Source: Prauserella flavalba (GTDB lineage Bacteria; Actinomycetota; Actinomycetes; Mycobacteriales; Pseudonocardiaceae). Taken from it: 64,000 nucleotides of DNA. Below are positions 41,273 through 57,240 of this stretch, piece after piece (within the stretch, counting starts at the first letter, position 1; each line of letters starts with the position of its first letter). The notes under the pieces were generated by a model, which worked only from the letters and a program-made list of their open reading frames with translations, had not been told where the DNA came from and did not search any database. The stretch lies in NCBI RefSeq assembly GCF_003202235.1, contig NZ_MASU01000005.1:992001-1056000 (forward strand), read 5' to 3'. A program made the position numbers and the translations under genes.

Positions 41273-41799
41273 TGACGGCCGCGCTGCCGGTGACCGTGCT
41301 CGTGTCCCGTACCGCGCGCACCGACGGCGCCGCCCTGCTGCGGTGGGCGCACGGCCTGTGTCAGGACGCCGCGCGGTTCCCCGGCCACCTGGCGTCCCAC
41401 GTCGGCACGGCCGAGACCGGCGGGTCCGTGACCGTCCACATCGGAGTCTCCTTCGCCTGCTCCGCCGACCTGGCCCGCTGGGAACGCAGCGACGCGCGGG
41501 CGAGACGCCTCGCCGAGGGCGACCGGCTCACCAGGGGCGAGCCGGTCGCCCTGTCGCTCGCCGACCTCGGCCCCGCGGGGGCACCGCCCGCCGGCGGCAG
41601 GCTGCGGTCGGCCATCCTCATCTGGGTCGCCCTGTTCCCGCCGGCCGCCGCGGTCAACGCCCTGCTGATCCCGTACCTCGACGCCTGGCCCGGGCTCGCG
41701 CGCACCCTCGTGCTGACGCTCGTGCTCGTCCCGGTGGTCGTCTTCGGCACACTGCCGCCCCTGCAACGTGCCCTCGCCCGCCGGTCCCGCCCGCGCTAG
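41272..41799 (+). CDS. Membrane-anchored monooxygenase-like (ABM-fold) protein
   Basis: A 175-residue protein beginning one base into the previous stop codon (TGATG). Residues 1-95 resemble the antibiotic-biosynthesis-monooxygenase ferredoxin-like fold (ALLRWAHGLCQDAARFPGHL, HIGVSFACSADLARWERSDA). Two C-terminal hydrophobic helices follow (about 112-132 and 142-160). ABM/TM proteins of this kind are common and uncharacterised. Co-transcribed with the ThDP enzyme; role unknown. Confidence 0.75.
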   Translation: MTAALPVTVLVSRTARTDGAALLRWAHGLCQDAARFPGHLASHVGTAETGGSVTVHIGVSFACSADLARWERSDARARRLAEGDRLTRGEPVALSLADLGPAGAPPAGGRLRSAILIWVALFPPAAAVNALLIPYLDAWPGLARTLVLTLVLVPVVVFGTLPPLQRALARRSRPR

Positions 41800-41897
41800 C
41801 GCATGCGCCGATCGCCGATTGACCACACCGGTGTTCACACCGCGCCGTGGAACGGGCAGACTGTTCTCGATCTCCACGGTCGATACGGAGGATGCGG

Positions 41898-42725
41898 TTG
41901 AACGAGGCGGAGCGGCTCGGCGAGTCGGTGAACAAGGTCTCGGTCGGGCGGGTGTACGACTACCTGCTGGGCGGTGTGCACAACTACGCGGTGGACCAGC
42001 AGTTCGCCGAGGAGCAGCTCAAGCGGCTGCCGGAGATGCGCAACTTCGCGCGCTCCAACAGAGCCTTCCTCGGCCGGGCCGTGCGGTTCGCCGTCGACCA
42101 GGGTGTGCGGCAGTTCGTCGACATCGGGTCGGGGCTGCCGACGCAGGGCAATGTGCACGAGGTCGCCGAGGAGGCCGCGCCCGGCGAATGCAGCGTCGTC
42201 TACATCGACAACGAGCCGATCGCCCAGGCGCACGCGCACATCCTGCTCGAGCGCACCGCGGACCCGGAGCGGCACCGCGCGCTCGACGCGGACTTCTTCG
42301 ACGGGCCGAAGCTGTGGGAGCGCGTACTCGAGACCGGCGTCATCGACCCCGAGCGGCCGATCGCGCTGCTCGCCGTGGCGCTGCTGCACTTCATGCCGCC
42401 GGAGACCGAGCCGGAACGACTGCTGGCCTACTACCGCGACCAGCTCGCCCCCGGCAGCTTCGTGGCGCTGTCGCACATCCACGTGCCGCCGGAGGACGCC
42501 GAAACCCTCGCCGCCGCGGAGAAGGTCATCGACTCCTACCGCAGGCAGGCCAACAGCGTCGCCAGGCCGAGGCCCCGCGAGGACATCGCCGCCTTCTTCG
42601 AGGGCCTGGAGCTCGTGGAACCCGGCCTGGTGTGGGTGCCCGAGTGGCGCCCCGACGGTGACGACCCGTACCAGAACGAGCCCGCCCGCTCCCGCGGCCT
42701 GGCGGGGGTCGGCCGCAAGGCCTGA
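41898..42725 (+). CDS. SAM-dependent methyltransferase, PF04672/DUF574 family
   Basis: A 275-residue methyltransferase. The family signature VSVGRVYDYLLGGVHNYAVD opens the protein, and the SAM-binding motif is FVDIGSGLPTQGNVHEVAEE followed by VVYIDNEPIAQAHA. GGAGG at 41887-41891 is six bases before TTG 41898, whereas ATG 41892 directly abuts it, so TTG is chosen. This family is abundant in actinomycetes; substrates are unknown. Confidence 0.82.
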   Translation: MNEAERLGESVNKVSVGRVYDYLLGGVHNYAVDQQFAEEQLKRLPEMRNFARSNRAFLGRAVRFAVDQGVRQFVDIGSGLPTQGNVHEVAEEAAPGECSVVYIDNEPIAQAHAHILLERTADPERHRALDADFFDGPKLWERVLETGVIDPERPIALLAVALLHFMPPETEPERLLAYYRDQLAPGSFVALSHIHVPPEDAETLAAAEKVIDSYRRQANSVARPRPREDIAAFFEGLELVEPGLVWVPEWRPDGDDPYQNEPARSRGLAGVGRKA

Positions 42726-42730
42726 CCCCG

Positions 42731-43000
42731 CTACTCGGTCAGGTGCGCGGGCCGCCGGGTGACGGCCTCGATGTCGGCCGCGGTCGCCTCGATCAGCTGA
42801 TGTGACAGATCGGCCATCGCCCTGGCGACCGCGAGCTCGTCACCAATCGCCGGAACGTTGGCGTCGTGCGGGTGTTTGCGGGCGGTTCCGGTGCCGGTCC
42901 GCTCGGTGCCCGCGCCGGTGCTCAGCCGAGCCTCGGCGCGCGTGCGGTCGTCGTACTCGTGGATGTCGATGTCGACGGTCCACCTGGTCTCGTGTTCCAT
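42731..43000 (-). CDS. DUF1876 domain protein
   Basis: An 89-residue protein of the DUF1876 family, recognised by WTVDIDIHEYDDRTRAEARL and DELAVARAMADLSHQLIEAT, which resembles a small double-stranded-RNA-binding-like fold. Such proteins are common in mycobacteria and Pseudonocardiales and sometimes associated with stress regulons. Function unknown. Convergent with the methyltransferase, five bases apart. Confidence 0.8.
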   Translation of the reverse strand: MEHETRWTVDIDIHEYDDRTRAEARLSTGAGTERTGTGTARKHPHDANVPAIGDELAVARAMADLSHQLIEATAADIEAVTRRPAHLTE

Positions 43001-43037
43001 CGCGCACCTCCTGCCGTACCCCTTGATGGTCCCTCGC

Positions 43038-44429
43038 TCAGACCACCACGTCGAGCAGGAGGATGAGCGGGAGCGAGAGCACCGACGACAGGGTCATCGC
43101 CACGCTGTGCGTCTTGAGCGTTCCCCTGGTCGTGAAGCCGAGCAGTGACTGGAACATCCAGAAGAAGTTGCTGCTCACGTGGGGCACGAACAGCGCGCCC
43201 GATCCGGCCGCGAGCGCGATGAGCACCGGTTCGACACCGAGCCCGCCCGCGAGCGGGGCGAGCAGGCCTGCGGCGGTGATCGCGGCGACCGAGATCGAGC
43301 CCAGCGCGATGTGCAGGATCGCCGCGACCAGCCAGACCAGCAACAGCGGCGGCAGGAATCCCACGGAGAAGTACCCGGCCAGCACGTCCTCGAGCCCGGA
43401 CTCGCCGATCACCGCCGCGAGCGACCCGCTGACGCCGGTGAGCACGAGGATGGGGCCCGCGGTCGTCAGCGCCGAGGAGACCGCGGCGCCGACCTCCGTG
43501 CCGGGCAGGTGGCGGCGGGCCACCGCGTAGGCCGCCGTGGCGCCGAGGAACATCGCGATCACCGGGTCACCGACGAAGCCCACGACGGCCGGGGTCCACC
43601 CGAACGCCTCGGCGAGCGCACCGGCCGAGATGAGCAGCAGTGTGAGCACCACCGGCGCCACGCACAGCGCCAGCGGGGGTGGCGTCCGCTCCGGTTCGCC
43701 CGTGGCCTCACCGCTCTCGCCGGAACCCGCAGCGGGCACCGCCGAGGCCCGGACCCGGTCGTCGTCCGCCGTCTCGGCGGCGGCGAGCTCGTCCAGCTCG
43801 GCGTTCCAGCGCAGGGCCCCGCGGCTGAGCCAGCTGAACACGAGCATCGTGAGCAGCGCCGTCGGGAGTGCGACGACGAGGCCCAGTACGAACATCGTGC
43901 CCAGCGGCACGTGCAGGAGGCCGGCCACCGCGACGGCGGCCACGCCGGGGACCACGAAGACGAGACCCACCTCGATGCCCGCCGTCAGCGCCCCGCCCAT
44001 CAGCGCGAGGCCCTGGGGGCCGAGCTTCGGCGCGAGCCTGCGCGCCAGCGGAGCGGTGAGCACCAGCAGCACATCGGAGTAGATGGACGTGAAGAGGCTG
44101 CTCAGTGTCGCGCTGAACACGTAGGGCACACCCTGCGGAGGCACCCTGCGCGTGATGGCCTCGGTCACCCTTTGCATCGTGCTGGTCGCCGTCAGCATGG
44201 ACCCGAGCAGCACCCCGAACGTGATCAGCAGCCCGATCTCCGTCATCAGCTCCCCGAAGCCCTCGGCGACGACCTTCGTCGTGTCGTCGAGGCCGAGTCC
44301 GGTGACCAGTCCGAAGTAGAGGGACCCGGCCAGGAGCGCGATGATGGGCGGAACCCGGAGCCAGGTGATGATCACCACGATGCCCGCGATCGTGATGCCG
44401 GTGTGGAGCAGGAGCATGCTGTCGGCCAT
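43038..44429 (-). CDS. GntP-family (gluconate:H+ symporter-type) permease
   Basis: A 463-residue transporter with about 12 helices. ITIAGIVVIITWLRVPPIIA, GFGELMTEIGLLITFGVLLG and the C-terminal PHVSSNFFWMFQSLLGFTTR match the GntP/CitMHS-like group. A long hydrophilic loop (about 215-270) separates the halves. ATG 44429 follows AAGGAAGAGG. It is divergent from a LysR gene, across GATAGG-N5-CCTATC, and shares that site with the dehydrogenase at 45497, so it probably imports tartrate, malate or a sugar acid. Confidence 0.85.
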   Translation of the reverse strand: MADSMLLLHTGITIAGIVVIITWLRVPPIIALLAGSLYFGLVTGLGLDDTTKVVAEGFGELMTEIGLLITFGVLLGSMLTATSTMQRVTEAITRRVPPQGVPYVFSATLSSLFTSIYSDVLLVLTAPLARRLAPKLGPQGLALMGGALTAGIEVGLVFVVPGVAAVAVAGLLHVPLGTMFVLGLVVALPTALLTMLVFSWLSRGALRWNAELDELAAAETADDDRVRASAVPAAGSGESGEATGEPERTPPPLALCVAPVVLTLLLISAGALAEAFGWTPAVVGFVGDPVIAMFLGATAAYAVARRHLPGTEVGAAVSSALTTAGPILVLTGVSGSLAAVIGESGLEDVLAGYFSVGFLPPLLLVWLVAAILHIALGSISVAAITAAGLLAPLAGGLGVEPVLIALAAGSGALFVPHVSSNFFWMFQSLLGFTTRGTLKTHSVAMTLSSVLSLPLILLLDVVV

Positions 44430-44512
44430 GTGCCTCTTCCTTGAGGTCGGCGGTTCGCACTCAGTGAAGGCCGCGCTCCCGGCCACGTCCAAGACGGGTT
44501 TCCTCCCAGTCA

Positions 44513-44529
44513 GATAGGGTGCGCCTATC
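44513..44529. promoter_or_regulatory. LysR operator GATAGG-N5-CCTATC, copy 1
   Basis: GATAGG (44513-44518) and CCTATC (44524-44529) with five bases between. It lies between the permease start (44429) and the LysR start (44550). The same palindrome recurs at 45424-45440 before the dehydrogenase. Confidence 0.65.
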
Positions 44530-44549
44530 GACAGCGGTGAGGAGGCGCG

Positions 44550-45428
44550 ATGGACGCGCGGCAGCTCAGGTACTTTCTCGCCGTCGTCGACCACGGCACG
44601 GTGCACCGGGCGGCGGCGGAGTTGTTCGTCGCGCAGCCCTCGATCTCCCAGGCGTTGCGGGCCCTCGAACGGGACCTCGGGACGCTGCTGTTCCACCGTG
44701 CGGGGCGCAAGCTCGTCCTCAGCCCCGCGGGCGAGGCGCTGATCGACCCGGCCCGGCAGGTGATGCGCTGGCTCGATCTCGCCAGGGCGAGCGTGGACGC
44801 GGCGGAGGGACTCGAGGCGGGTCAGCTCGTGGTGGCGGCGATGCCGTCCCAGTCGGTGGATCCGCTGACCACGCTCATCGCCGGCTTCAGCGCGCGCCAT
44901 CCCCGGGTGCGGATCTCCGTGCGGACCGCGGCGACCCCCGCCGACGTCACCGCGTCGCTGCGCACGGGTGACGCCGAGCTGGGCCTGGTGGCGGCGCGGG
45001 AACGCGCGGGCCACGGCGACCTGGTGAGCCACCCGCTCGAGACGCAGCGGTTCATCGTGGTCGCCCCGCCGGACGACGCGCTGCCCGCGCACACCCCGCT
45101 GCGGTTCGCCGACCTCGCGGGAAGGCGGCTGGTGGTCGGCCAGCCGGGAACCGGGATGCGCCGGGTCGCCGACGCCGTCGTGGCCGCCGCACCCGGCAGC
45201 TACGCGGCCGTGGAGACCGAACACAGGGCCGCGATCCTGCCGCTGGTTCTCGCCGGGGTCGGCGTCGCGGTGCTGAGCGAGTCGTGGCGCCAGCTCGCCG
45301 CGACCGCCGGGGCGCTGGTGCGCGACCTCGACTGCGACGAGGCGCTCCACGTCGCGCTGGTGCACCGGAGCGGCCCGGTCAGCCCGGCCGCCGCGGCGTT
45401 CCTCGCGGTCGCGAACGCACTGAGATAG
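44550..45428 (+). CDS. LysR-family regulator of the tartrate/D-malate module
   Basis: A 292-residue LysR protein. The N-terminus MDARQLRYFLAVVDHGTVHR and helix-turn-helix AAELFVAQPSISQALRALER are standard; the effector domain spans about 90-290. AGGAGG precedes ATG. Flanking palindromes on both sides and the neighbouring dehydrogenase parallel E. coli dmlR-dmlA and tartrate loci. Its own stop codon lies inside the second operator. Confidence 0.88.
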   Translation: MDARQLRYFLAVVDHGTVHRAAAELFVAQPSISQALRALERDLGTLLFHRAGRKLVLSPAGEALIDPARQVMRWLDLARASVDAAEGLEAGQLVVAAMPSQSVDPLTTLIAGFSARHPRVRISVRTAATPADVTASLRTGDAELGLVAARERAGHGDLVSHPLETQRFIVVAPPDDALPAHTPLRFADLAGRRLVVGQPGTGMRRVADAVVAAAPGSYAAVETEHRAAILPLVLAGVGVAVLSESWRQLAATAGALVRDLDCDEALHVALVHRSGPVSPAAAAFLAVANALR

Positions 45429-45440
45429 GTATGCCCTATC
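45424..45440. promoter_or_regulatory. LysR operator GATAGG-N5-CCTATC, copy 2
   Basis: GATAGG (45424-45429), five bases, CCTATC (45435-45440). Overlaps the LysR stop codon and lies 57 bases before the dehydrogenase start. Identical arms to copy 1. Confidence 0.65.
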
Positions 45441-45496
45441 AACTCGTGAGGAACGCGGTCTTGGACAGCGGGCTCGCCCACCGGTCCACTGGGCCC

Positions 45497-46555
<1,059 letters not shown>

Positions 46556-46605
46556 CCGGAACAGCCGCCGCGCCCCCTCCCGGGTCACACGGATCACAGT
46601 GCGAG

Positions 46606-46624
46606 TTAGGCAAGCCTTGCCTTA
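46606..46624 (+). promoter_or_regulatory. Iron box (IdeR/DmdR-like) upstream of fprA
   Basis: TTAGGCAAGCCTTGCCTTA is symmetric at 16 of 19 positions with its own reverse complement and resembles the actinobacterial iron box TTAGGTTAGGCTAACCTAA. It is 38 bases upstream of fprA. DtxR-family repressors with bound Fe(II) bind such sites, so fprA would be induced in iron limitation. Confidence 0.6.
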
Positions 46625-46661
46625 GCGTGATGGCGGTCGGTAGTCGAGGAGAGGGTGTTCT

Positions 46662-48011
46662 GTGAGTCGTTCCCTGCGGGTCGCCATCGTCGGGGCGGGA
46701 CCGGCCGGCATCTACGCGGCCGACTTCCTGCGCAAGTCCGGCACGGACGTCGAGGTGGACATCTTCGAGCGGATGCCGGCGCCGTTCGGGCTGATCCGTT
46801 ACGGCGTGGCCCCCGATCATCCGCGCATCAAGGGAATCGTCGACGCGCTGCACCGCGTGCTCGACAAGCCGGGCGTGCGGCTGTTCGGCAATGTCGGCTA
46901 CGGCACGGATCTCAAGCTGGACGACCTCCGCCAGTTCTACGACGCCGTGATCTTCGCGACCGGTGCGGCGAAAGACCGCCCGCTCGACATCCCCGGCATC
47001 GAGCTCGACGGCAACTACGGCGCCGCCGACTTCGTGTCGTGGTACGACGGACATCCGGACGCGCCGCGCGCCTGGCCACTGCACGCGAGGAGCGTCGCCG
47101 TGCTCGGCGTCGGCAACGTGGCGCTCGACCTCGCCAGGGTGCTGGCCAAGTCGCCCGCCGAGCTGCTGTCCACGGAGATTCCCGACAACGTCCATAGTGG
47201 ACTTCTCGGCAACGCGGTGACCGATGTGCACGTGTTCGGCAGGCGCGGCCCGGCGCAGGCGAAGTTCACGCCGATGGAGCTGCGCGAACTGGACCACTCG
47301 CCACACTTCGAGGTCGTCGTCGACCCCGAGGACATCGACTTCGACGAGGGCTCGATGGCGGCGATCCGCGGCTCCAAGCAGGTCGACATGGTGGTGAAGA
47401 CCCTGCAGGACTGGGCCATCCGCGACCGCGTGGAGCATCCACGGCGCCTGCACCTGCACTTCTTCCACTCCCCGGTCGAGGTGCTCGGCCCCGACGGCAC
47501 GGTCACCGGGCTGCGCACCGAGCGGACCGAGCTGACCGGTGACGGCAGCGTGCGGGGCACGGGCACGTACCACGACTGGGAGGTCCAGGCCGTGTACCGC
47601 GCCGTCGGCTACCTGTCCTCGCACCTGGCCGACGTGCCGTTCGACCACGAGTCGGGCACGGTGCCCCACAAGTCGGGGCGCGTGCTCGACATCGACGAGA
47701 ACCAGCTCGAAGGCGTCTACGTCACCGGCTGGATCAAGCGCGGCCCCGTCGGCCTGATCGGGCACACCAAGGGCGACGCCACGGAGACCGTCACGAGCCT
47801 GCTCACCGACGCGCCGAACCTGCCGTCCGCACCGCAGCGTGACCCGCTCGCGATCGAGGAGTACCTCACCGAACGCGGCATCGCCTACACCACGTGGGGC
47901 GGCTGGCTGCGGCTCGACGCCCACGAGCGCGAGCTGGGCAGGCTGCGGGGCCGTGAGCGTCTGAAGGTCGTGGAGCGCGACGAGATGGTGCGGGTCTCCC
48001 GCCGGGACTGA
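46662..48011 (+). CDS. fprA: FprA-type ferredoxin/adrenodoxin-NADP reductase
   Basis: A 449-residue FAD enzyme that passes NADPH electrons to ferredoxins. FAD motif VAIVGAGPAGIYAADFLRKS, then FGLIRYGVAPDHPRIKGIVD, NADP motif VAVLGVGNVALDLARVLAKS, VHVFGRRGPAQAKFTPMELR and C-terminal GWIKRGPVGLIGHTKGDATE are all present. GTG 46662 follows AGGAGAGGG. Unlike the FprB-type gene at 18599, it has no ferredoxin domain. It could support P450s, radical SAM or siderophore-linked reactions. Confidence 0.93.
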   Translation: MSRSLRVAIVGAGPAGIYAADFLRKSGTDVEVDIFERMPAPFGLIRYGVAPDHPRIKGIVDALHRVLDKPGVRLFGNVGYGTDLKLDDLRQFYDAVIFATGAAKDRPLDIPGIELDGNYGAADFVSWYDGHPDAPRAWPLHARSVAVLGVGNVALDLARVLAKSPAELLSTEIPDNVHSGLLGNAVTDVHVFGRRGPAQAKFTPMELRELDHSPHFEVVVDPEDIDFDEGSMAAIRGSKQVDMVVKTLQDWAIRDRVEHPRRLHLHFFHSPVEVLGPDGTVTGLRTERTELTGDGSVRGTGTYHDWEVQAVYRAVGYLSSHLADVPFDHESGTVPHKSGRVLDIDENQLEGVYVTGWIKRGPVGLIGHTKGDATETVTSLLTDAPNLPSAPQRDPLAIEEYLTERGIAYTTWGGWLRLDAHERELGRLRGRERLKVVERDEMVRVSRRD

Positions 48012-48028
48012 GCATGATCGCCGGGAGT

Positions 48029-48085
48029 CCGGTGTGGACGCCGTGGGCGGAAAGTTTCCTTTCCATAAGGCGAAGTCCACGCCGG
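48029..48085. repeat. Nested inverted repeat between fprA and the radical SAM unit
   Basis: Outer arms CCGGTGTGGAC (48029-48039) and GTCCACGCCGG (48075-48085) pair at 10 of 11 positions. An inner perfect hairpin GGAAAG-TTTC-CTTTCC occupies 48049-48064. The element begins 17 bases after the fprA stop and ends about 100 bases before the next gene. It may end fprA transcription, or be a leader structure or operator for the radical SAM unit. Confidence 0.6.
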
Positions 48086-48188
48086 ATTCCCACGTGTGAC
48101 CCGAGTGGACGATTGTGTCTTGACTCGCTCGCCGTCCCGGGGAGACCCTGAGCGAACGACTCCTCACCCCACGCGAACGGGGGCGGCC

Positions 48189-48998
48189 ATGAGCCAGTTC
48201 CTCACGCTCGACGCACCAGTCATGGTCTTCACCGACCACACGTTCACGGCGGGCGGGGTCACCGACGGCTCCGTGCCTGCCGCGATTCTGACCAGGGGCA
48301 CCACCCTGCTCCTGCGAGATTTGTTCTTTCCCGAGGCGGGCACCGAACAGGCCGAGGCGCCACCGTTGTCGGTCGACGCGCTCGAGAGTCAGCTGCAGGA
48401 GCGCGTGCCCGGCCGCAGCCAGGAAGCGGCGTCCGGCCTGGTGGCGATGTTCCTCGAACAGATCCCGCACCTGGCCACGCGCGAAGGTCCGACCACGCTC
48501 GGGCCCGTCGAGATCCAGGAGTTCTCCGAGGACGGTCTGGTCGAGCTCGCACCGGGCACGAGGGCGTTCCGGCCCGCCGGCAGGCTCTACCGGAGGGCCG
48601 TCAACGACCGGACGATGTGGTTCGCGGTGGCCGAGGAGTCCCTGGCGGGGGTCGTGGAGCCGAACTCGTCCATCACGTCGTTGACCACGGACTACTCGGG
48701 CGTCACGATCTCGGACCTCAGCGTCGTCCGCAGCGGCAGCGGCTGCGGGTCCTGTGGCGCGTGCGGGGCGTGCGGACTGTGCACCTTCTGCGGCGAGCTG
48801 AACCTCGGCTCTGGCGTCTCGGCCGCGATCGCCGTCACAGCATTCGCGGCGCTCGGCGAGGCGAAGACGGAACGCCCGGTGTTCGAGGTGGACCTGCGGG
48901 CCAGGCCCACCCCCACTCCGATCCTCACCGAGGTGGACCGGCGACTCCGGGAACTGGGCACCGTGGCCAGGACCCTGGACGACGACTGGGGCCGGTGA
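48189..48998 (+). CDS. Six-cysteine protein, candidate substrate/partner of the radical SAM enzyme
   Basis: A 269-residue protein I do not recognise. There is no signal peptide. Its outstanding feature is CGSCGACGACGLCTFC at residues 186-201: cysteines at 186, 189, 192, 195, 198 and 201, each exactly three residues apart, in a glycine/serine-rich setting (SGSG before, GELNLGSG after). No other cysteine occurs in the chain. The N-terminal 180 residues look like a folded domain (a beta-rich start and an acidic helical middle with LVAMFLEQIPHLATREG). The stop codon overlaps the radical SAM start by one base, so the two are made together. A large RiPP-like precursor, a modified structural protein or an iron-sulfur/metal carrier are all possible. 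ATG 48189 is preferred to an upstream ATG at 48096. Confidence 0.7.
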   Translation: MSQFLTLDAPVMVFTDHTFTAGGVTDGSVPAAILTRGTTLLLRDLFFPEAGTEQAEAPPLSVDALESQLQERVPGRSQEAASGLVAMFLEQIPHLATREGPTTLGPVEIQEFSEDGLVELAPGTRAFRPAGRLYRRAVNDRTMWFAVAEESLAGVVEPNSSITSLTTDYSGVTISDLSVVRSGSGCGSCGACGACGLCTFCGELNLGSGVSAAIAVTAFAALGEAKTERPVFEVDLRARPTPTPILTEVDRRLRELGTVARTLDDDWGR

Positions 48999-50455
48999 TG
49001 ACCACGGCACGCGATCGCGCCGGCGTCCTGTCTCAGGAGTACCCGCTGGCCAGTGACCGGCTGGAGATCCACCGCACCGCCGCGGGCGGAACCCTGTTCA
49101 CCTACTCCGCGCGGGAGCGGTCCACGCCTTCGATGCTGCTGGACCAGTTCGAGACCGAGGGCTACTTCCTGCGGTTCCTGGAGCTGGCCGACGGCACGCG
49201 GTCCTTCGGTGACATCCAGGCCGCGTTCGGCACCGAGTTCGGCGAGTTGTTCGGTGCCGCGCTCGCCGACAAGGCCGCCCGGGTCGCGATGGAGGCCGGC
49301 ATCTGCACCGCGCTCCGCGAACCCGCCGGGGCCCCGTCCGGGGTCCGGCGCGTCACGGGCTCGACCCGCGGTTTCTTCCCGCTGCACGCCACGGTCGAGA
49401 TTATCGAGACGTGCAACTTCACCTGCACCCACTGCTACTACTCGTCGTCTCCCGCGAAGAAGGGCCGCCTGTCCCTCGACCAGTTCCGGCAGGTCGTCGA
49501 CAACCTCGTCGAGCACGGGGTGCGCATCATCGAGATCACCGGCGGTGAGTGCACGATCCACCCCGACTTCCGCGAGATCCTCCGCTACGCCGCGGCGCGG
49601 TTCGGCCTGTTCGCGATCATCACCAACGGATACCTCCTCGGTAAACGCCCGGATCTGCTGGCGGAGGTGGCGTCGTATCCGAACATCATCGCGCAGATCA
49701 GCATCGACGGACTCGAGGAACACCACGACCGGTGGCGCAGGCAGCGTGGCTCGTTCCGGGCGGCGGTCGCCGCGGCGGGCGCGCTCGCGCGGCGCGGTGT
49801 GCCGGTCCGGATGGCGTGCACGATCTCGAGCGCGAACGTCGCCGAGGTGGTGCCGCTGTACGAGCTCGCCAAGTCGCTCGGCGTGTCGGCCGTGTCGTTC
49901 GCCCCGGTCGCGGCGCTCGGCCGGGGGTGCAACCTCACCGAACCCGGGCTCGGCGCGCGGGAGCTCATCGAGGCCATCAACTCGCAGCTGACACCCTTCT
50001 CCGGCGACCCGTTGCTGAGCTGGGGCGACCCGAGTGGCCGGGCGGGCACCCGCCAGAGCCACAACTGCGGGGCGGGCTCGCGTACCTACGCCGTCGACTA
50101 CGACGGCAACGTCCGCGCCTGCAACTTCTCCCGGGACTCCAAGAAGTTCGGCAACGTTCTCGCCGAGAGCTACGAGACCGTCTTCGGTCAGCAGGCCAAC
50201 TACCTGTTCCGCAACGCTCCGTCCCCGGGCGGACCGGAGTGCGCCGGGTGCCGGTACTACTTCTACTGCAACGGGTGCTTCGTGAAGGCGTTCATGACCT
50301 CCGAGTCCGAGTACCCGGAATGCCCGTGGCGGCGCAAGTGGTTCCCCGGCATGTCGCTGGACCGTGACGAGGTCCGGCGGCCACCGGAACGGAAGCTCCT
50401 GCCGCTGCTGCTGAACAACGGTGGCGCCTCCGGCTGCGGATGCGGGCACGGCTGA
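48998..50455 (+). CDS. Radical SAM/SPASM maturase with N-terminal recognition-like domain
   Basis: A 485-residue radical SAM enzyme. Residues about 45-110 resemble a PqqD-like peptide-recognition winged helix (FLELADGTRSFGDIQAAFG). The radical SAM cluster is C139-x3-C143-x2-C146 (CNFTCTHC), followed by GGE at 182-184. A SPASM region has seven cysteines: 357, 375, 415, 418, 424, 427 and 442 (GNVRACNFSRD and CAGCRYYFYCNGCF), enough for two auxiliary 4Fe-4S clusters. The C-terminus adds GASGCGCGHG. Architecture matches enzymes that form thioether or carbon crosslinks in peptides. It follows the six-cysteine protein with a one-base overlap and ends at a strong hairpin. Confidence 0.88.
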   Translation: MTTARDRAGVLSQEYPLASDRLEIHRTAAGGTLFTYSARERSTPSMLLDQFETEGYFLRFLELADGTRSFGDIQAAFGTEFGELFGAALADKAARVAMEAGICTALREPAGAPSGVRRVTGSTRGFFPLHATVEIIETCNFTCTHCYYSSSPAKKGRLSLDQFRQVVDNLVEHGVRIIEITGGECTIHPDFREILRYAAARFGLFAIITNGYLLGKRPDLLAEVASYPNIIAQISIDGLEEHHDRWRRQRGSFRAAVAAAGALARRGVPVRMACTISSANVAEVVPLYELAKSLGVSAVSFAPVAALGRGCNLTEPGLGARELIEAINSQLTPFSGDPLLSWGDPSGRAGTRQSHNCGAGSRTYAVDYDGNVRACNFSRDSKKFGNVLAESYETVFGQQANYLFRNAPSPGGPECAGCRYYFYCNGCFVKAFMTSESEYPECPWRRKWFPGMSLDRDEVRRPPERKLLPLLLNNGGASGCGCGHG

Positions 50456-50458
50456 GAA

Positions 50459-50491
50459 GGCCCAACGGAGACCCTGGAGTCCCGTTGGGCC
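50459..50491. terminator. 10-bp hairpin between the radical SAM gene and the MFS transporter
   Basis: GGCCCAACGG (50459-50468) and CCGTTGGGCC (50482-50491) pair perfectly, with 13 bases between. It sits three bases after the radical SAM stop and five before the stop of the convergent transporter, consistent with a bidirectional terminator. Confidence 0.8.
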
Positions 50492-50496
50492 GCCCG

Positions 50497-51822
50497 TCAC
50501 GGCGCCGACGCGCGGAGGTTGTCCCCCGCCGTCTCGGGCACCGTCCACAGGGTCAGCAGGGTGACCACCGACGCGAAGATCATGTAGAAGGCGGGGCTGA
50601 GCGTGCTGCCGGTGGTGGCGACGAGCCATGTCGCGATGAGCTGGTACGGCGCGGCACCGATGACGCCGGCGAGGTTGAAGCCCAGTGAGATCCCGCTGTA
50701 GCGCACGCGGGTCGGGAACAGCTCCGCGAAGATCGTGTACGCGACGCCCTGCACCACGCCGTACGGCACGTTCAGGACGAGCCCGGCCACGAGCGCGAGT
50801 GCCAGGTTTCCCTGCTGCATCAACCAGAAGCACGGTACGGCGAGCACCGCGAAGCCCGCGAAGCCGAACGCGAGGACACGGCGCCTGCCGAGCCGGTCGG
50901 ACAGGCTTCCCGACCACGGCATGAGCGCCACCGGCATGATCGCGATCACCGCGATCAGCCACGTGGTACCAGAGAGCGCGTAGTCCAGCTGCGCGAAGTG
51001 CACCACGAGGTACACCGAGCCGAGCCCGCCGGCGACCATCTGCCCGAAGGCGATCCCGATCACCTGGAACACCGCCTTCGGGTGGCGGCGCACCACCTCG
51101 GTCACGGGCGCCTTCGGTGGCTCGTTCTCGGCGACGAGCTCCTTGAAGATCGGCGAGTCCTCGATCCGCATGCGGTACACGAGGCACAGCACGAGCAGCG
51201 GGAACGCCACGAGGAACGGAATCCGCCACGCCCACGTGGTCATGGCGGAGCCGGCGAAGAGACTGACGAGCCCCACCACCACGGCCGCCGACGACATGCC
51301 CACCGCGATACCGATCGACGTCGCGGAGCCGAACAGGCCGCGGCGCTTGCGTGGCGCGGACTCGGCGACCAGTGCGGCCGCGCCGCCGATCTCCCCGCCG
51401 GCCGAGAAACCCTGCAGCACGCGCAGCACCGCCAGCAGGATCGGCGCGGCGACACCGAGCGCGGCGTAGGTGGGCAGGAGTCCCGTGAGGACGGTCGCCA
51501 CGCCCATCATGACCACGGTGATGAGCAGCACCCGCCGCCTGCCGACGCGGTCGCCGAGCCTGCCGAACACCAGCCCGCCGACCGGGCGGGCGAGAAAGCC
51601 GCTGCCGAACACGGCGAGCGTCGACAGCAGGCCCGCGGCGCTGCTCTCGCCTGGGAAGAACAGCGGCGCGAGCACGACCGTCAGGTAGCCGTACACGGCG
51701 AAGTCGTAGTACTCGACAGCGGTTCCGGCCGCTGCGGCGATGCTCGCCCGGCGGCCGACGGCCGCCAGTTCGGCTTCCGTGTACTTGGCTGAAGTCGCGT
51801 CTGTCCGATCGGTAGTCACCAT
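50497..51822 (-). CDS. MHS-family MFS transporter (metabolite:H+ symporter, ShiA/ProP-like)
   Basis: A 441-residue 12-helix transporter. The MHS signatures are [16 protein letters not shown] at helix 1, [16 protein letters not shown] (motif A) and [20 protein letters not shown]. The substrates of this family include osmolytes, shikimate, alpha-ketoglutarate and aromatic acids. ATG 51822 is used. It may serve the CoA-thioester cluster upstream at 52-57 kb, to which it is next but separated by 170 bases that hold no gene. Confidence 0.88.
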
Positions 51823-51991
51823 TGACCGTCCCCGGAGGTTGACTGCGGGCGCCGCCCTCCGGCTGCCCGCGTGTGTCACTAGGATGAGTGAACACGAATC
51901 CGACGTCAAGTTCTTGTCTGAGCCTCGCGGAGAATGATTACCGAGCTGTGACCGTCACCTCGGGGCGGAGCGCGCCGGCGCGAGCGGTCGC

Positions 51992-52423
51992 TCAGTCGCC
52001 CGGCTCCCAGTTGGGCACCACGGTGCCGTCCTCGGCCCGGTCGAAGCGCACCCGCATGGGCTGCCCCGCGGTCAGGACCGGCTCCCCGGCCAGGCGCCCC
52101 ACGAGCCGCGTGCCGTCCGGCTGACCGTCCACGTCGACCACCACCACGGTGTACGGGACCGCGAACGCCGGGTGAACCTGGTGCGTCACCACCGTCCACG
52201 CGTACAGGTGGCCCCGGCCCGGGACCGGTCGCCACTCGCTCTCGTTGCCACCACACGCGAAGCACGCCTGCCGGGGCAGGTGCAGCACCTGGTCGCACGC
52301 CGTGCAGAACCTGAGTACCAGCTCACCCCTGCGGGCCGCGGCGAAGAACCCGGCGGTGTCACGGTCGTGCTCGGCCGGCAGCAGCGGGTGGGCCACGATG
52401 TCGGTGAACGCCACGGACGTCAT
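51992..52423 (-). CDS. DUF35/OB-fold zinc-ribbon protein, acyl-CoA aldolase/thiolase partner
   Basis: A 143-residue protein with a rubredoxin-like zinc ribbon (CTACDQVLHLPRQACFACGG) and an OB-fold (GHLYAWTVVTHQVHPAFAVP). Such proteins bind acyl-CoA and pair with thiolase-like enzymes: BbsA with BbsB, and the DUF35 part of ChsH2 with Ltp2. ATG 52423 overlaps the thiolase stop (ATGA). A stand-alone DUF35 gene implies partnership with that protein. Confidence 0.88.
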   Translation of the reverse strand: MTSVAFTDIVAHPLLPAEHDRDTAGFFAAARRGELVLRFCTACDQVLHLPRQACFACGGNESEWRPVPGRGHLYAWTVVTHQVHPAFAVPYTVVVVDVDGQPDGTRLVGRLAGEPVLTAGQPMRVRFDRAEDGTVVPNWEPGD

Positions 52424-53604
52424 CCCTTCACCAGCAGCAACGCGGAGGTTCCCGGTGGCGGCGCCGAGGTCACGAGGCTCACCTCGGCGCCCTCCACCTG
52501 CGAGGTCGACGTGCCCCGCAATTGCCGCACGCCTTCCAGCACGTGGTTCATCCCGTGGACGTAGCCCTCGGACATGTTGCCGCCCGCGGTATTGCTCGGC
52601 AGCGAACCGCCCCGCCGCAGCGCTCCGCTCTCGGCGAACGGTCCACCCTCGCCCTTGGCGCAGAACCCGAAGTCCTCCAGCTGCAGCAGGACCGTGATCG
52701 TGAAGCAGTCGTAGAACTGCGCGACATCCACATCGGACGGACCGAGCCCCGCCCGGGAGAACAGCGTCCGCGCGGCCGTCGCCGACGGCGTGACCGTGAC
52801 GTCGGGCCGCTGGAGCATCGGGTACATGACCCCGGGCTGCACCCGTGGCCCGGTGGACTGCGTGACCGCGCGGACCAGTACCGCCGGGTGCGGCGAGTCG
52901 GCCGCCCGCTCCGCCGCGGTGACGATCACCGCGCACGCACCGTCGGTCTCCAGGCAGAAGTCGAACAGGCGCAGCGGCAGCGAGATGGGCCGCGCGATCG
53001 CGCACTCCTCCAGCGTCAGCACCCGGTCGTGCATCTGCGCCGCCGGGTTGCGGTTCGCCGCCTCCCGGCAGGCGACCGCGATGTGCGCGAGCGCCTCGTG
53101 TCTCGTTCCGTATGTCGCCATATGTCGCTGGGCGAGCAGCGCGAAGAACTGCCCCGGTGTCACGAGTCCGTAGGGCGCGAAGAACTCCTCGTAGCCACCC
53201 TGCCCGCCGACCCTCGCCGCCGGGTCGGGAGTGCCCTGGCCGAAGCGGCGCCCGGAGCGGCCGTTGAGCGCGCGGTACACGAGCACGGTGGTGGCCTGGC
53301 CCGACAGGATGGCCGCGACGGCCTGGCCGACCATCGCGCAGGGGCCCGATCCGCCGGGCCCCGTCTGCCCCCAGTAGGTCAGGTCGGGGATGCCGAGCGA
53401 CTCCGCGATTCCGCTGTAGGACACCAAGTCGTGGTCGCACGAGACCACGCCGTCGACGTCGGCGACGGTGAGCCCGGCGTCGGCGAGCGCCGCCCGCGCC
53501 GCCTCGGTGGCGAGCGTCAGCTCGCTGCGCCCGCTGTCCTTGGAGAACTCGGTGGCCCCGATGCCGGTGATCGCGCAGCGGTCCCGGTGCGAGTAGCCGG
53601 TCAT
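52420..53604 (-). CDS. Lipid-transfer/SCP-x-type thiolase or acyl-CoA aldolase
   Basis: A 394-residue thiolase-superfamily protein. The signatures are AITGIGATEFSKDSGRSELT at the N-terminus, YDCFTITVLLQLEDFGFCAK near residue 305, and SEGYVHGMNHVLEGVRQLRG near 352. Members with a DUF35 partner carry out retro-aldol cleavage of side-chain hydroxyacyl-CoAs (Ltp2) or thiolysis (BbsB). The active-site tyrosine/histidine pattern is intact by eye; which reaction applies cannot be told from sequence alone. Confidence 0.87.
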   Translation of the reverse strand: MTGYSHRDRCAITGIGATEFSKDSGRSELTLATEAARAALADAGLTVADVDGVVSCDHDLVSYSGIAESLGIPDLTYWGQTGPGGSGPCAMVGQAVAAILSGQATTVLVYRALNGRSGRRFGQGTPDPAARVGGQGGYEEFFAPYGLVTPGQFFALLAQRHMATYGTRHEALAHIAVACREAANRNPAAQMHDRVLTLEECAIARPISLPLRLFDFCLETDGACAVIVTAAERAADSPHPAVLVRAVTQSTGPRVQPGVMYPMLQRPDVTVTPSATAARTLFSRAGLGPSDVDVAQFYDCFTITVLLQLEDFGFCAKGEGGPFAESGALRRGGSLPSNTAGGNMSEGYVHGMNHVLEGVRQLRGTSTSQVEGAEVSLVTSAPPPGTSALLLVKG

Positions 53605-54776
53605 CGGCCCAGCACCGCCTCGGTGTGCTCGCCGAGCCGGGGCGCGCGGCGGGGTCCCTCGGCGGAGAACGCGCTGAACCAGAACGGGCTTCCCGGCTGG
53701 AGCGCGGGCTCACCGCCGTCCTGCTCCACCTCGACGAAGAAGCCCCGCGCGGCCAGGTGCTCGTCACCGAACAGCTCCTCCGGCGCGTTGGTGATGCCGA
53801 TGGGCAGACCGCGCCGCTGTCCCTCGTGGTAGGCCGTGTCGCCGTCCAGCAGCAGGAAGAATACCTCGACCAGTTCCTGCACGTGGGAGAAGTTGGCCTG
53901 CCGGTGCGCGAGGTCGGCGTACTCGGGCTCCACGAGGTCCGCGGCGAGCCCCAGCGAGTCCATCCAGTCGACCAGCGCCTGCCACGGCTTCTGGTCCGCG
54001 AGGATGAGTGCGAAGTAGACCCACCGCCCGTCGGCGCACTGGAACAGTGCGGGCTGTGTCGGTGAGGGCTGTGCGTGCCGGCACGTCTGCCGTCGCACGA
54101 TCGCCCTGGGGTAGAACCAGAAGGGGTTGGCCAGTTCCCCGCTCACCGCGAGCGCGGAGTGCATCGACACGTCCACGACCTGTCCCCTGCCGTCCCGCGT
54201 CCGCTGGAGCAGGGCCAGCAGCAGCCCGGTGTGGGCGAAACTCGCGGCGGTGGCGTAGCCCTGGTTGCCGCCCGGCCGGATCGGCGGAATGGAATGGTCG
54301 TCGTAGCCGCAGGAGTTGAGCGGCCCGCCCAGCGCGAGCCCCACCAGATCGCTGGACCGGTACGACGCCCACGGGCCGTCCAGCCCGAACGGCGTCACCG
54401 CCAGCACGATCAGCCGGGGATGGGCCTCCGCGAGCGCGTGCGGGCCGAGCCCGCACACCGTCGACCGCCCGGTGATCAGCACGTCCGCATCCGCGATGAG
54501 CGCGGCGAGGGCGGCTCGTCCGTCCGCTGTGGACTCGTCGAGCACCACGCTGCGCTTGCTCGTGTTGTACCAGCGGAAATTCAGGCTCGCCTCGGCGTCG
54601 TCGCGCCCGCGTACGAAGGGCCCGGTCCGCCTGCTGGCGGCGCCGCCCGGCGGCTCCACCTTCACCACGTCGGCACCCTGGTCGGCCAGCAGCTTGCCGG
54701 TGTACTCCCCGGCCGGGTCCTCGGACAGCTCGACGACCGTGAGCGCCGCGTACGGGTTGGTGCCCGCTGTCGTCAC
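53601..54776 (-). CDS. Family III CoA-transferase (CaiB/BaiF), first copy
   Basis: A 391-residue CoA-transferase. Typical features are KLLADQGADVVKVEPPGGAA near the N-terminus, YNTSKRSVVLDESTADGRAA and the late GLPIGITNAPEELFGDEHLA. GTG 54776 overlaps the next CoA-transferase stop (GTGA) and the stop overlaps the thiolase start. Two adjacent family III genes may form a heteromer, as for BbsEF. It would activate an organic acid by CoA transfer. Confidence 0.87.
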   Translation of the reverse strand: MTTAGTNPYAALTVVELSEDPAGEYTGKLLADQGADVVKVEPPGGAASRRTGPFVRGRDDAEASLNFRWYNTSKRSVVLDESTADGRAALAALIADADVLITGRSTVCGLGPHALAEAHPRLIVLAVTPFGLDGPWASYRSSDLVGLALGGPLNSCGYDDHSIPPIRPGGNQGYATAASFAHTGLLLALLQRTRDGRGQVVDVSMHSALAVSGELANPFWFYPRAIVRRQTCRHAQPSPTQPALFQCADGRWVYFALILADQKPWQALVDWMDSLGLAADLVEPEYADLAHRQANFSHVQELVEVFFLLLDGDTAYHEGQRRGLPIGITNAPEELFGDEHLAARGFFVEVEQDGGEPALQPGSPFWFSAFSAEGPRRAPRLGEHTEAVLGR

Positions 54777-56059
54777 AGGATCCCCTCCTCGGTCAGTTCG
54801 GCGACCTCGTCCGCAGGCATCCCGAGCAGCGTGGTGAACACGTACTCGTTGTCCTCGCCCAGCAGCGGTGCGGAGCGCCAGTTGTCCTGCTCGGTGCGCG
54901 AGAACAGCACCGGGCTGCCCTCGAAGCGGGCCTCGCCGATCACGGGGTGGTCGAGGTCGAAGAACGTCCCCCGGTGGGCCAGCTGGGGGTCCCGCTCGTC
55001 GAGGTCCCGGGAGTTCTGCACCGCGCCTGCGGCGACACCCGCGGCCTGCAGCCGGTGCATGGTCTCGTGCGCGTCGCGCTCCCGGGTCCACGCCGAGAGG
55101 TGCTCGTCGAGCGCGTCCTGGCTGGCGAAGCGGCCCGCCTGTGTGGCGAACCGGGGGTCGGCCGTCCATTCCGGCGATCCCAGTTCGGCGACGAGGGCTT
55201 TCCAGTCGGCGTCGTCGAACACGGCGATGGCGATCCACCGGTCGTCGCCCGCGGCCGGGTACACGCCGTGCGGCGCGGCCCGCGGATGCTCGAGGCGGTT
55301 GCCCGTTGGGAAGTCCGGCCGCCGGGTGACCGCGCCGTTCGCCGCGACGTCGAGCAGGTCCGGCCCGAGCAGGTTGATGCCGACCTCCACCGCCGACACG
55401 TCGATGAGAGTCCCCGCTCCGGTCAGCTCGCGGTGGAGCACGGCCATCATGATCGCCGCCGAGTTGTAGTAGGCGGCCTGGTTGTCCATGTAGGAGAAGC
55501 CCCAGCCGCTGGGCTCGCGTCCCGGCAGCCCGCTGATGTGGGTCAGGCCGCTGACGGCCTGGATCACGGGGCCGTAGCTGCGGTACTCCGTGTGCGGGCC
55601 GCGGTGGCCGTACCCGCTCATGCGCGCGAAGATCACGTCGGGGCGCAGTTCGCACAGGTGCTCGTAGGTCAGGCCCCAGCGCTCCATCACGCCGGGCGCG
55701 AAGTTCTCGGTGACCACCGACGACGCCGCGATCAGCCGTTCGGCGACCTCGCGCCCGCGCTCGGTGCGCATGTTGATGGTGACGCCGAGCTTGTTGCGGT
55801 TGTAGTTGTTGAACAGCCCGCCCTTGTCGGGGTCCGGGTTGGGGTCCTCCTCGCCGTAGGTGCGCACGTCGCCCTTGTAGAACGGGAGCCTCCGCGGCAT
55901 GTCGAGCCGGGTCCGGTCCTCGATCTTGATGACGTCGGCGCCGAAGTCGGCGAGCATGCGCGTCGCGACGGCACCCACACCCATCCAGCAGAAGTCGGCC
56001 ACCACGAGTCCGGCGAGCGGGCCTCGCCGCTGCCGCGGCCTGCGATCCACGGTCACCAC
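54773..56059 (-). CDS. Family III CoA-transferase (CaiB/BaiF), second copy
   Basis: A 428-residue CoA-transferase with LVVADFCWMGVGAVATRMLA, DVIKIEDRTRLDMPRRLPFY, NRNKLGVTINMRTERGREVA and VVTENFAPGVMERWGLTYEH, all matching the family. The first of two tandem GTG codons (56059) is used, five bases after GGAGGG. About 25% longer at the N-terminal half than the partner copy. One base separates it from the MDR gene stop. Probably acts with the first copy. Confidence 0.87.
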   Translation of the reverse strand: MVTVDRRPRQRRGPLAGLVVADFCWMGVGAVATRMLADFGADVIKIEDRTRLDMPRRLPFYKGDVRTYGEEDPNPDPDKGGLFNNYNRNKLGVTINMRTERGREVAERLIAASSVVTENFAPGVMERWGLTYEHLCELRPDVIFARMSGYGHRGPHTEYRSYGPVIQAVSGLTHISGLPGREPSGWGFSYMDNQAAYYNSAAIMMAVLHRELTGAGTLIDVSAVEVGINLLGPDLLDVAANGAVTRRPDFPTGNRLEHPRAAPHGVYPAAGDDRWIAIAVFDDADWKALVAELGSPEWTADPRFATQAGRFASQDALDEHLSAWTRERDAHETMHRLQAAGVAAGAVQNSRDLDERDPQLAHRGTFFDLDHPVIGEARFEGSPVLFSRTEQDNWRSAPLLGEDNEYVFTTLLGMPADEVAELTEEGIL

Positions 56060-56060
56060 C

Positions 56061-57092
56061 TCAGCCCTCCGTCCTGTCCGTCAGCGACACCACCGTCTTC
56101 CCGACGTTGCCGCCGCCGAGCATGTCCAGGAACGCGGGCCACGCCTGGGTGATCCCACCCCGCACCGTCGTCTCCACGGAGCGGATCGCGCCGGAGCACA
56201 GCCAGCCGGCCATGTCCCGCTCGAAGTCCGGCCGCAGGTCGAGGTGCCGGGTGACGAGGAAGCCCTCCATGCGCAGGCGCCGCCAGATCATGAGCAGCAG
56301 GTTGCGCGGCCCGGGTACGGGCTCCGTCGCGTTGTAGGTGGAGATGGCCCCGCACAGCGCGATGCGGCCCTCCTCCCGCATACACCGGATGGCGCATTCC
56401 AGCTGCTCGCCACCGACGTTGTCGAAGTACACGTCGATCCCGGCGGCACCCGCCCGCTCCAGCGCGGCGGCGAGCAGATCGCGCACCGCCCCGTCGTGGT
56501 AGTCGAAGGCCGCGTCGGCACCCAGTTCCCGGGTCAGGAACGCCACTTTCTCCGCCGATCCCGCACTGCCGATCACCGTGCAGCCCTTGGCCTTGGCGAT
56601 CTGCACCGCCGTGGCACCGACGGCACCAGCCGCGGCGGACACGAACACCGTCTCGCCGGGCTTCAGCGACGCGATGCGCAGGAGCCCGGCGTAGGCCGTC
56701 AGGCCGGTCTGGCCGAGCACGCCCAGGTGCAGGGCGGGGTCGAAACCGCGCACATCGACCGGTTCGGCCTCGGCGGCCTTCACCAGCGCGACCTCCCGCC
56801 AGCCCAGTTCGTGCCGTACCCAGCTACCCTCGGGCAACACCGGATCAGCGGAGGCGATGACCTCGCCCACCGCATGTCCGCTCATGGGCTCGCCGAGCGC
56901 GTAGGGCTCCACATAGGACCTGGCCTCACTCATCCGGCCGCGCATGTACGGCTCCACCGACATGACGGCGTTGCGGACGAGCACCTCGCCGGGCCCGGGA
57001 TCGGGAACGTCGACCGGCACCAGGGCCACGTCGTCGTCGGTGGGCTCACCGACCGGCCTGCGCACCAGCTGCCATTGCCTGCTCGAGGTCAC
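56061..57092 (-). CDS. MDR-superfamily NADP-dependent oxidoreductase (CurA/PTGR-like)
   Basis: A 343-residue zinc-independent MDR enzyme. The NADPH motif is SAAAGAVGATAVQIAKAKGC (about 155-174), with IDVYFDNVGGEQLECAIRCM and AYAGLLRIASLKPGETVFVS as family hallmarks. It reduces alpha,beta-unsaturated ketones or acyl derivatives. It is first in the minus-strand operon that runs to the DUF35 gene, and its promoter carries two CTCATGAGGAATAG sites. Confidence 0.87.
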   Translation of the reverse strand: MTSSRQWQLVRRPVGEPTDDDVALVPVDVPDPGPGEVLVRNAVMSVEPYMRGRMSEARSYVEPYALGEPMSGHAVGEVIASADPVLPEGSWVRHELGWREVALVKAAEAEPVDVRGFDPALHLGVLGQTGLTAYAGLLRIASLKPGETVFVSAAAGAVGATAVQIAKAKGCTVIGSAGSAEKVAFLTRELGADAAFDYHDGAVRDLLAAALERAGAAGIDVYFDNVGGEQLECAIRCMREEGRIALCGAISTYNATEPVPGPRNLLLMIWRRLRMEGFLVTRHLDLRPDFERDMAGWLCSGAIRSVETTVRGGITQAWPAFLDMLGGGNVGKTVVSLTDRTEG

Positions 57093-57142
57093 GGTGCCGC
57101 GGTCCTTTCGCCATTGACGGACGTCCCTCAGCGAGCGAATTG

Positions 57143-57156
57143 CTCATGAGGAATAG
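57143..57156. promoter_or_regulatory. CTCATGAGGAATAG site, copy 1
   Basis: A 14-base element with palindromic core CTCATGAG, 51 bases upstream of the MDR start and just downstream of the -10 of its promoter. Identical to copy 2. It is one of five sites in this island; the GntR protein encoded at 58977 is the likely ligand. Confidence 0.65.
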
Positions 57157-57161
57157 ACCGA

Positions 57162-57189
57162 GATTATGGCGCACCTCACCCCCTGTCAA
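57162..57189 (-). promoter_or_regulatory. Promoter of the MDR-CoA-transferase-thiolase operon
   Basis: On the minus strand TTGACA at 57189-57184 is followed after 16-17 bases by ATAATC/TAATCT (57167-57161). The -35 is perfect. CTCATGAGGAATAG sites flank it on both sides, at 57143-57156 and 57192-57205. Confidence 0.55.
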
Positions 57190-57191
57190 CC

Positions 57192-57205
57192 CTCATGAGG
57201 AATAG
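57192..57205. promoter_or_regulatory. CTCATGAGGAATAG site, copy 2
   Basis: Identical 14-base element to copy 1, 49 bases away (start to start), lying just upstream of the -35 TTGACA of the operon promoter. Two sites flanking one promoter suggest looping or cooperative binding. Confidence 0.65.
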
Positions 57206-57240
57206 GGGCGCGGACGGCCTCGGTCAGCGGCGCCGCGTGC

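Follow-up and report, generated by a model that had tools for sequence, protein, structure and literature searches.

What does a radical S-adenosylmethionine (SAM)/SPASM enzyme act on when the gene directly before it encodes a 269-residue protein with a cysteine at every third residue of one short block? This question is raised by two plus-strand genes in a 64,000-nucleotide stretch of Prauserella flavalba DNA, which as a whole is called the window here. The first gene (48189..48998, from ATG at 48189 to TGA at 48998) encodes the six-cysteine partner protein P0002 (269 aa), the putative substrate, an open frame with a GC content at third codon positions (GC3) of 0.90 and with homologues at two other loci, L005 and L006. 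The second gene (48998..50455, from ATG at 48998 to TGA at 50455) encodes the radical SAM/SPASM enzyme P0001 (485 aa), the putative maturase, which matched PF04055 and PF13186 and had AlbA as its best NCBIfam model. The first-pass annotation had described a one-base overlap between the two genes, and this was confirmed, as the A of the partner stop codon is also the A of the enzyme start codon (base 48998). The GC content and GC3 of the pair (0.69-0.70 and 0.90-0.92) match those of the flanking genes (0.70 and 0.92-0.93), so neither frame stands out from the usual coding genes of this organism. The results below show that the pair is real and conserved, and that it is unnamed in the family libraries and literature searched.

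To find relatives, six peptides of eight residues each were taken from the enzyme and matched exactly against 84,980 species genomes. The scan gave 11 loci, and at two of them the enzyme was close and nearly full length: L005, from a Calditrichia metagenome-assembled genome (MAG), 52% identical to the window enzyme, and L006, from a gammaproteobacterial MAG, about 50-51% identical. Since an exact-peptide scan sees close relatives only, two is a lower bound. A partner homologue of 225 aa was present directly upstream of the enzyme gene both in L005 (7284-7961) and in L006 (likely start 7298, to 7975), with 60 and 4 bases, respectively, between partner and enzyme when the likeliest starts are taken. 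Two-sequence BLAST of the window partner gave E values of 6e-22 against L005 and 6e-19 against L006, and all three partners share the array motif G..C-x2-C-x2-C-x2-C-x-L-C-x2-C-x-E-[LV]-N. The two genes thus occur together at three distant loci, and the two-gene system proposed in the annotation was borne out, all three known partner homologues lying directly upstream of an enzyme gene. Partners that usually stand without the enzyme, or a named family, had been put forward as what would speak against such a system; 3/3 were paired and no family name was obtained for the partner, where two of the three partners were found via the enzyme and the search for solitary partners covered just the genomes sampled with the partner as query, none being seen. 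The lengths of the L005 and L006 contigs (280 and 132 kb) make an assembly accident less likely.

The neighbourhoods were compared all against all, using frames of at least 60 aa from window positions 40189-58455, L005 and L006. On the sense strand, nothing but the pair was homologous at all three loci. Two matches joined two loci each, a LysR frame (window 44541-45425 and L006 5930-6814, upstream of the pair, 26% identity) and a TetR-like frame (window 57244-58014 and L005 10105-10764, 31% over 71 aa), and both were discounted as regulators of a generic kind; frames on the opposite strand of the pair that matched between loci were antisense shadows of it. Whole-length identities were 52, 50 and 55% for the enzyme and about 28, 22 and 41% for the partner (window-L005, window-L006 and L005-L006), so L005 and L006 form the closer pair for both proteins. 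At these two loci the GC content of the pair (0.46-0.49) is near that of the locus (0.48 and 0.45), and its GC3 is 0.42-0.51 compared with 0.55-0.65 in the flanking genes measured, a gap clearest in L006. This lower GC3, together with the scattered occurrence at 50% enzyme identity, suggests from base composition and distribution that the pair may have spread horizontally. Across the three loci the two genes form a conserved unit of sporadic distribution.

The partner has six cysteines only, at residues 186, 189, 192, 195, 198 and 201, which make a perfect C(x2C)5 array. None of 200,000 random placements of six cysteines in 269 residues gave this array, and it is unique to the partner in a six-frame translation of the whole 64-kb window; the block that the annotation had called unusual is exact. 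Cysteines outside the array number zero in two of the three partners and one in the third. The array lies in a cysteine block delimited by three-sequence conservation (residues 183-205, 48735..48803), whose invariant residues besides the six cysteines are G183, L197, E203 and N205. Before it comes an N-terminal domain (residues 1-150, 48189..48638), predicted by AlphaFold2 with moderate confidence to be folded and mixed beta/alpha. After it comes an Ala/Gly/Val/Ile-rich hydrophobic tail (residues 206-222, 48804..48854; mean hydropathy +1.7, +1.2 and +1.4 across the three partners), about where both relatives end, and then a hydrophilic C-terminal extension of 47 residues (223-269, 48855..48995), which is found in the window copy only and is absent from the L005 and L006 partners. 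The cysteine block was the best conserved of the four partner parts compared. Invariant columns made up 10/23 of the block, 20/150 of the N-terminal domain and 0/17 of the hydrophobic tail, and pairwise identity was 48-70% in the array block versus 21-33% in the N-terminal domain. As far as these three sequences tell, such a pattern, with the array better conserved than the N-terminal part, reverses the expectation for the usual precursor of a ribosomally synthesised and post-translationally modified peptide (RiPP).

In the AlphaFold2 model, built on a three-row alignment, the predicted local distance difference test (pLDDT) score per 10-residue block was 53-89 in residues 1-150 and 25-42 after residue 150. 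It stayed below 50 nearly throughout after residue 152, with some helices drawn, and the model is consistent with a flexible substrate segment there. A fold search of the PDB with the N-terminal domain gave nothing at E 0.001 or better. The annotation had recognised no family for the partner, and the libraries agreed: the window partner had zero matches in NCBIfam and Pfam (E up to 10, as for all three partners), PHROGs (E up to 1) and PADLOC (E up to 1e-5), while among PDB sequences it had six matches at E 0.2 to 0.9, which were taken as chance, and the partner profile had none. No paper describing the pair was found by title or abstract start, with supplements and most subscription journals outside the search.

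The enzyme belongs to the radical SAM/SPASM class, as annotated. The window enzyme matched PF04055 (4.3e-21, 76.2 bits against a gathering score of 29.5) and the SPASM domain PF13186 (1.3e-06, 29.0 bits against 21.5), and it carries the CX3CX2C radical SAM motif at residues 139-146 (49412..49435), where 7/8 residues are invariant in the three enzymes. Its SPASM set of seven cysteines (residues 357-442, CX12GX4C...CX2CX5CX2C...C, 50066..50323) has identical spacing in all three enzymes. The consensus given for this domain is CX9-15GX4C..CX2CX5CX3C..C (PMC6231123, in excerpt); the seven cysteines are present in 3/3 enzymes, but with CX2C rather than CX3C between the fifth and sixth. Cysteines 185 and 311 are two further invariant cysteines. 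A short cysteine-rich C-terminal tail, whose role is unexplained, closes all three enzymes; two to five cysteines follow the SPASM set in each, two tail columns are invariant in the three-row alignment, and the window copy has C480-G-C482 (50435..50443). At the other end, residues 1-117 (48998..49348) form an N-terminal domain that may be a RiPP recognition element (RRE). The annotation had proposed a recognition domain in the enzyme, and the predicted secondary structure, three strands followed by three helices, has the order expected of an RRE, with the strands partly at low confidence; sequence profiles gave the proposal no support.

As for the family of the enzyme, 85 NCBIfam models matched the window copy and none of the 25 listed reached its own cut-off. 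AlbA (NF012164) was the top model for all three enzymes, with 159.7, 149.7 and 159.6 bits (window, L005 and L006), all of which miss its cut-off of 850 bits. SkfB (TIGR04403, 100.2 bits in the window, cut-off 300) and StsB (NF045574, 87.8 bits, cut-off 625) were also matched by all three, SkfB being third-best in L005 and L006. By sequence, SkfB is the nearest solved structure to the window enzyme, and a structure search with the poor enzyme model placed SkfB first and SuiB second, with the epimerase EpeE also among the matches. A viperin assignment (PADLOC pVip, 3e-16) was rejected, the similarity being confined to the radical SAM core (residues 134-283).

In the reading that we favour, which has about an even chance of being right, the enzyme would be a maturase with the partner as its own substrate, thioethers would form in the cysteine array, and the product would stay full length in the cell. 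The enzyme would recognise and dock on the folded N-terminal domain of the partner, with the thiolates of the substrate close to its auxiliary Fe-S clusters; hydrogen atoms would be abstracted from residues that lie within the C(x2C)5 block or directly behind it, and carbon-sulfur (thioether) bonds would then be formed to the array cysteines. The product would be the whole protein, retained inside the cell, with its cysteines crosslinked into a knot near the C terminus; it would be kept for a function of the knot itself, for example as a rigid metal or redox site. In AlbA, radical formation takes place at the acceptor residue, the donor cysteine closes the thioether, and the auxiliary clusters are needed to form the bond (PMC8172795, in excerpt). 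AlbA is further stated to have seven C-terminal cysteines and is proposed to leave a cluster site open for a substrate cysteine; in CteB a substrate cysteine was seen on a cluster (PMC6231123, in excerpt). The P. flavalba enzyme has the same parts, a radical SAM domain and auxiliary-cluster cysteines, and the residues of its neighbour that are conserved most strongly, and are nearly missing elsewhere in it, are cysteines, in a stretch that may be flexible. Docking on the N-terminal domain followed by thioether formation in the array would be the most economical reading. Around the three loci, no protease was found among 24 distinct neighbours scanned by profile (part of all frames), and the all-against-all comparison found no exporter common to the loci. 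Because no common gene for cutting or export was found and the array, not the leader, is conserved, the modified protein would be kept whole with a functional array.

Several points weigh against this reading. The proposed chemistry of the pair is drawn wholly from sequence and models, and only three members are known. Sequence profiles gave an RRE probability of 14% (hhalign) for the N-terminal domain of the enzyme, and since neither model is better than modest (mean pLDDT 54 for the partner and 50 for the enzyme, from three-row alignments), the low scores may reflect thin data and not disorder. The mycofactocin maturase (TIGR03962) was the second-best model for all three enzymes (117, 122.4 and 119.5 bits, missing the cut-off of 265) and haem-pathway enzyme models scored close behind it, so the likeness to maturases does not single out thioether chemistry. 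Apart from the radical SAM core, the SkfB profile match takes in no more than the beginning of the auxiliary domain. In the SPASM part, window and L005 are more alike (71%) than L005 and L006 (65%). A C(x2C)n spacing would suit the binding of metal or Fe-S clusters just as well. Finally, genes of exporter type do occur close to the pairs, though without homology from one locus to another. In L005, downstream of the pair, a TetR gene is followed by outer-membrane efflux, HlyD-type and AcrB-type genes on the strand of the pair; L006 has a cation-efflux gene, and the window has a convergent MFS gene.

The alternative that survives best, though rather unlikely, is that the partner stays unmodified and is a metal or Fe-S carrier that feeds electrons, sulfur or clusters to the enzyme, whose true substrate would be encoded elsewhere. 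CxxC spacing is typical of metal sites, the six cysteines are kept in three phyla when the rest of the block, save G183, L197, E203 and N205, is not, and the conserved cysteine-rich tail of the enzyme could exchange clusters. The array, however, does not follow the usual ferredoxin pattern, CxxCxxCxxxC, and the partner matched nothing in Pfam. The enzyme, moreover, resembles peptide maturases, for which a neighbouring cysteine-rich gene product is normally the substrate.

An unlikely alternative treats the partner as a sactipeptide-like RiPP with an exceptionally long leader, from which the last ~40 residues (array and tail) would be cut off and exported to act outside, with a protease and exporter encoded elsewhere or with the efflux genes of L005 in that role. 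The L005 and L006 partners end about 20 hydrophobic residues past the array, so that a donor half precedes what may be an acceptor half, and these ends resemble the sactipeptides with nested-hairpin topology that have been described (PMC8172795, in excerpt); the same-strand efflux, HlyD-type and AcrB-type genes of L005 point the same way. Against this, the scanned neighbours included no protease and the loci share no exporter, the leader would be ~180 residues long with a predicted domain, the window partner carries 47 residues beyond its hydrophobic tail, and it is the array rather than the leader that is conserved.

It is improbable that the enzyme modifies the partner without thioethers, for example by oxidation, epimerisation or a C-C linkage near the array. 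SPASM enzymes do include dehydrogenases and C-C cyclases (PMC6231123, in excerpt), SuiB and EpeE are among the structural matches, and the mycofactocin maturase comes second in all three enzymes; yet the top sequence scores are with AlbA, a thioether-forming maturase, and the cysteines are the most strongly conserved candidate residues. That two unrelated genes overlap by accident is scarcely credible, with only the small number of loci in its favour and homologous proteins in the same gene order in three phyla against it; the samples searched showed neither partner nor enzyme homologues standing alone.

Taking the maturase-substrate reading further, the pair could represent a new class, in which a folded carrier domain presents the six-cysteine array, one enzyme locks it into a multi-thioether knot that serves as an intracellular metal or redox cofactor, and the two-gene unit is passed between phyla. 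We regard this extension as possible but doubtful.

The pair is rare in the genomes sampled; these samples may overlap, and first-look candidates were partly scored in the searches of the window's family, class and phylum and in some of the L006 phylum. The annotation had suggested a scan for co-occurrence in actinobacterial genomes, but the system extends beyond actinobacteria: a credible partner was found in 0/389 other genomes of the window's family and in none of the three others of the genus, and the relatives are in two other phyla. The partner search had matched 3/390 genomes of the family, its own included. The two other matches, L002 and L003 (E 1e-4 and 6.6e-4, 28% identity over part of the length, internal stop), were dropped after a tblastn re-test, in which L002 matched neither protein and L003 matched just a weak stretch of the partner and no enzyme. 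In the window's class, partner profile A1 found only the own genome among 394 sampled, and in the window's phylum the enzyme at E up to 1e-60 found only its own among 396. Profile A1 likewise matched the seed genome only in 40 genomes of the L005 phylum, in 40 of the L006 order and in 363 of the L006 phylum. A single sequence is sensitive enough for such work, as phmmer gave 1e-21 (L005) and 2e-17 (L006) in a database of 50000, so that relatives as distant as these should be visible to a single-sequence search.

Beyond the sampled genomes, scans of IMG/VR with P0002, A2 and A1 gave no relative. Among plasmids, the partner query gave chance matches only (E 1 to 8), and the L006 enzyme query gave 191 records, all below 60% identity, the 20 listed being at 21-27%. 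The nine further loci of the enzyme peptide scan (22-28% identity) held no C-x2-C-x2-C-x2-C frame of at least 30 aa, except L007, from a Eubacterium MAG, where an 80-residue minus-strand cysteine frame far from the enzyme was judged by eye to be unrelated to the partner.

The flanks of the pair were also inspected. A long interrupted hairpin with two 17-nt arms (48023..48091, +) separates the partner gene from the oxidoreductase gene before it. Its folding (48012-48135) had a z of -5.38, equalled by 0/200 shuffles, which upholds the nested hairpin of the annotation. The hairpin arm has six matches in the window at up to three mismatches, two of which are its own arms, compared with 0.71 expected; from these repeats the hairpin may be a small dispersed element. 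An Rfam scan of 47900-50700 gave no family, the hairpin having none at the gathering threshold. Downstream of the enzyme gene, the predicted terminator fared less well. A stem-loop is present (50459..50491, +), but it has no T run, its folding is only moderately in excess (z -1.87, equalled by 12/200 shuffles), and a terminator scan there found none.

The upstream gene (46662-48011) had library matches only to pyridine nucleotide-disulphide oxidoreductases and glutamate-synthase-like proteins, and it looks like a ferredoxin-NADP reductase. It was rejected as a member of the system, having no homologous frame at L005 or L006. After the enzyme comes the convergent MFS transporter gene; when it was searched in the genus for an empty site, many paralogues appeared, the best at 58% outside its own genome. 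Farther out in the window, a tartrate dehydrogenase gene (TIGR02089, above cut-off) stands beside a LysR-type regulator gene (44550-46552), and thiolase/lipid-transfer-like and class III CoA-transferase-like genes lie near each other on the minus strand (52423-56059), probably an acyl-CoA catabolic cluster. A CVNH (cyanovirin-N-like) gene lies just downstream of the pair in L006 (9568-9963, minus strand).

Where a radical SAM/SPASM enzyme works on the product of a neighbouring gene, the known substrates are mostly short peptides, later cut and exported. The homologous pairs of the three phyla retain a full-length protein, predicted to be partly folded, with an invariant six-cysteine array. Should crosslinks join its cysteines, the pair would be among the few cases in which radical thioether chemistry builds a permanent protein site, and with one enzyme and one putative substrate the system is minimal and easy to test.

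Compared with known systems, the enzyme is built like AlbA, SkfB and StsB, with an N-terminal domain, a radical SAM core and an auxiliary-cluster domain, but it stays far below the cut-offs of these families (159.7/850, 100.2/300 and 87.8/625 bits). The partner, like sactipeptide precursors, has a cysteine-rich stretch followed by a hydrophobic stretch; unlike them it is a protein of 225-269 aa and not a short peptide, with six cysteines at every third residue. In sactipeptide clusters the precursor consists of leader and core, and genes for a protease and for transport generally accompany it (PMC8172795, in excerpt), whereas here the length of the partner, the lack of a protease among the scanned neighbours and the lack of a common exporter give a different picture, even though efflux genes lie near the L005 pair. 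Sactipeptides and ranthipeptides are defined by a thioether bond to an alpha, beta or gamma carbon. Six cysteines in a short stretch beside a radical SAM/SPASM enzyme recall the SCIFF/ranthipeptide systems, but the partner has no NCBIfam match and its cysteines span 16 residues behind ~180 others. SCIFFs are widespread in Clostridia (PMC8326336, in excerpt), in contrast to partner profile A1, which was found in 0/362 sampled genomes of the phylum of the Eubacterium MAG, a sample with no positive control. The system of TIGR04340 (ACGX) shares a Cys-Gly-containing target, by its name, and its enzyme model matched the window enzyme with 91.1 bits; however, the cut-off of 400 was missed, and the cysteines here come every three residues and not every four, as far as the name ACGX tells. 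QhpD makes thioethers inside a non-RiPP protein, the small subunit of quinohaemoprotein amine dehydrogenase (PMC8326336, in excerpt). Of the 85 NCBIfam matches, the 25 listed do not include QhpD, and the partner has no credible relative among PDB sequences, but if the proposed chemistry holds, the pair would resemble the QhpD system as excerpted in placing thioethers inside a full protein. Since the enzyme class is well known and the thioether chemistry is one that we infer, the pair is a variation on the theme of radical SAM maturase and substrate, and not a wholly new kind of system.

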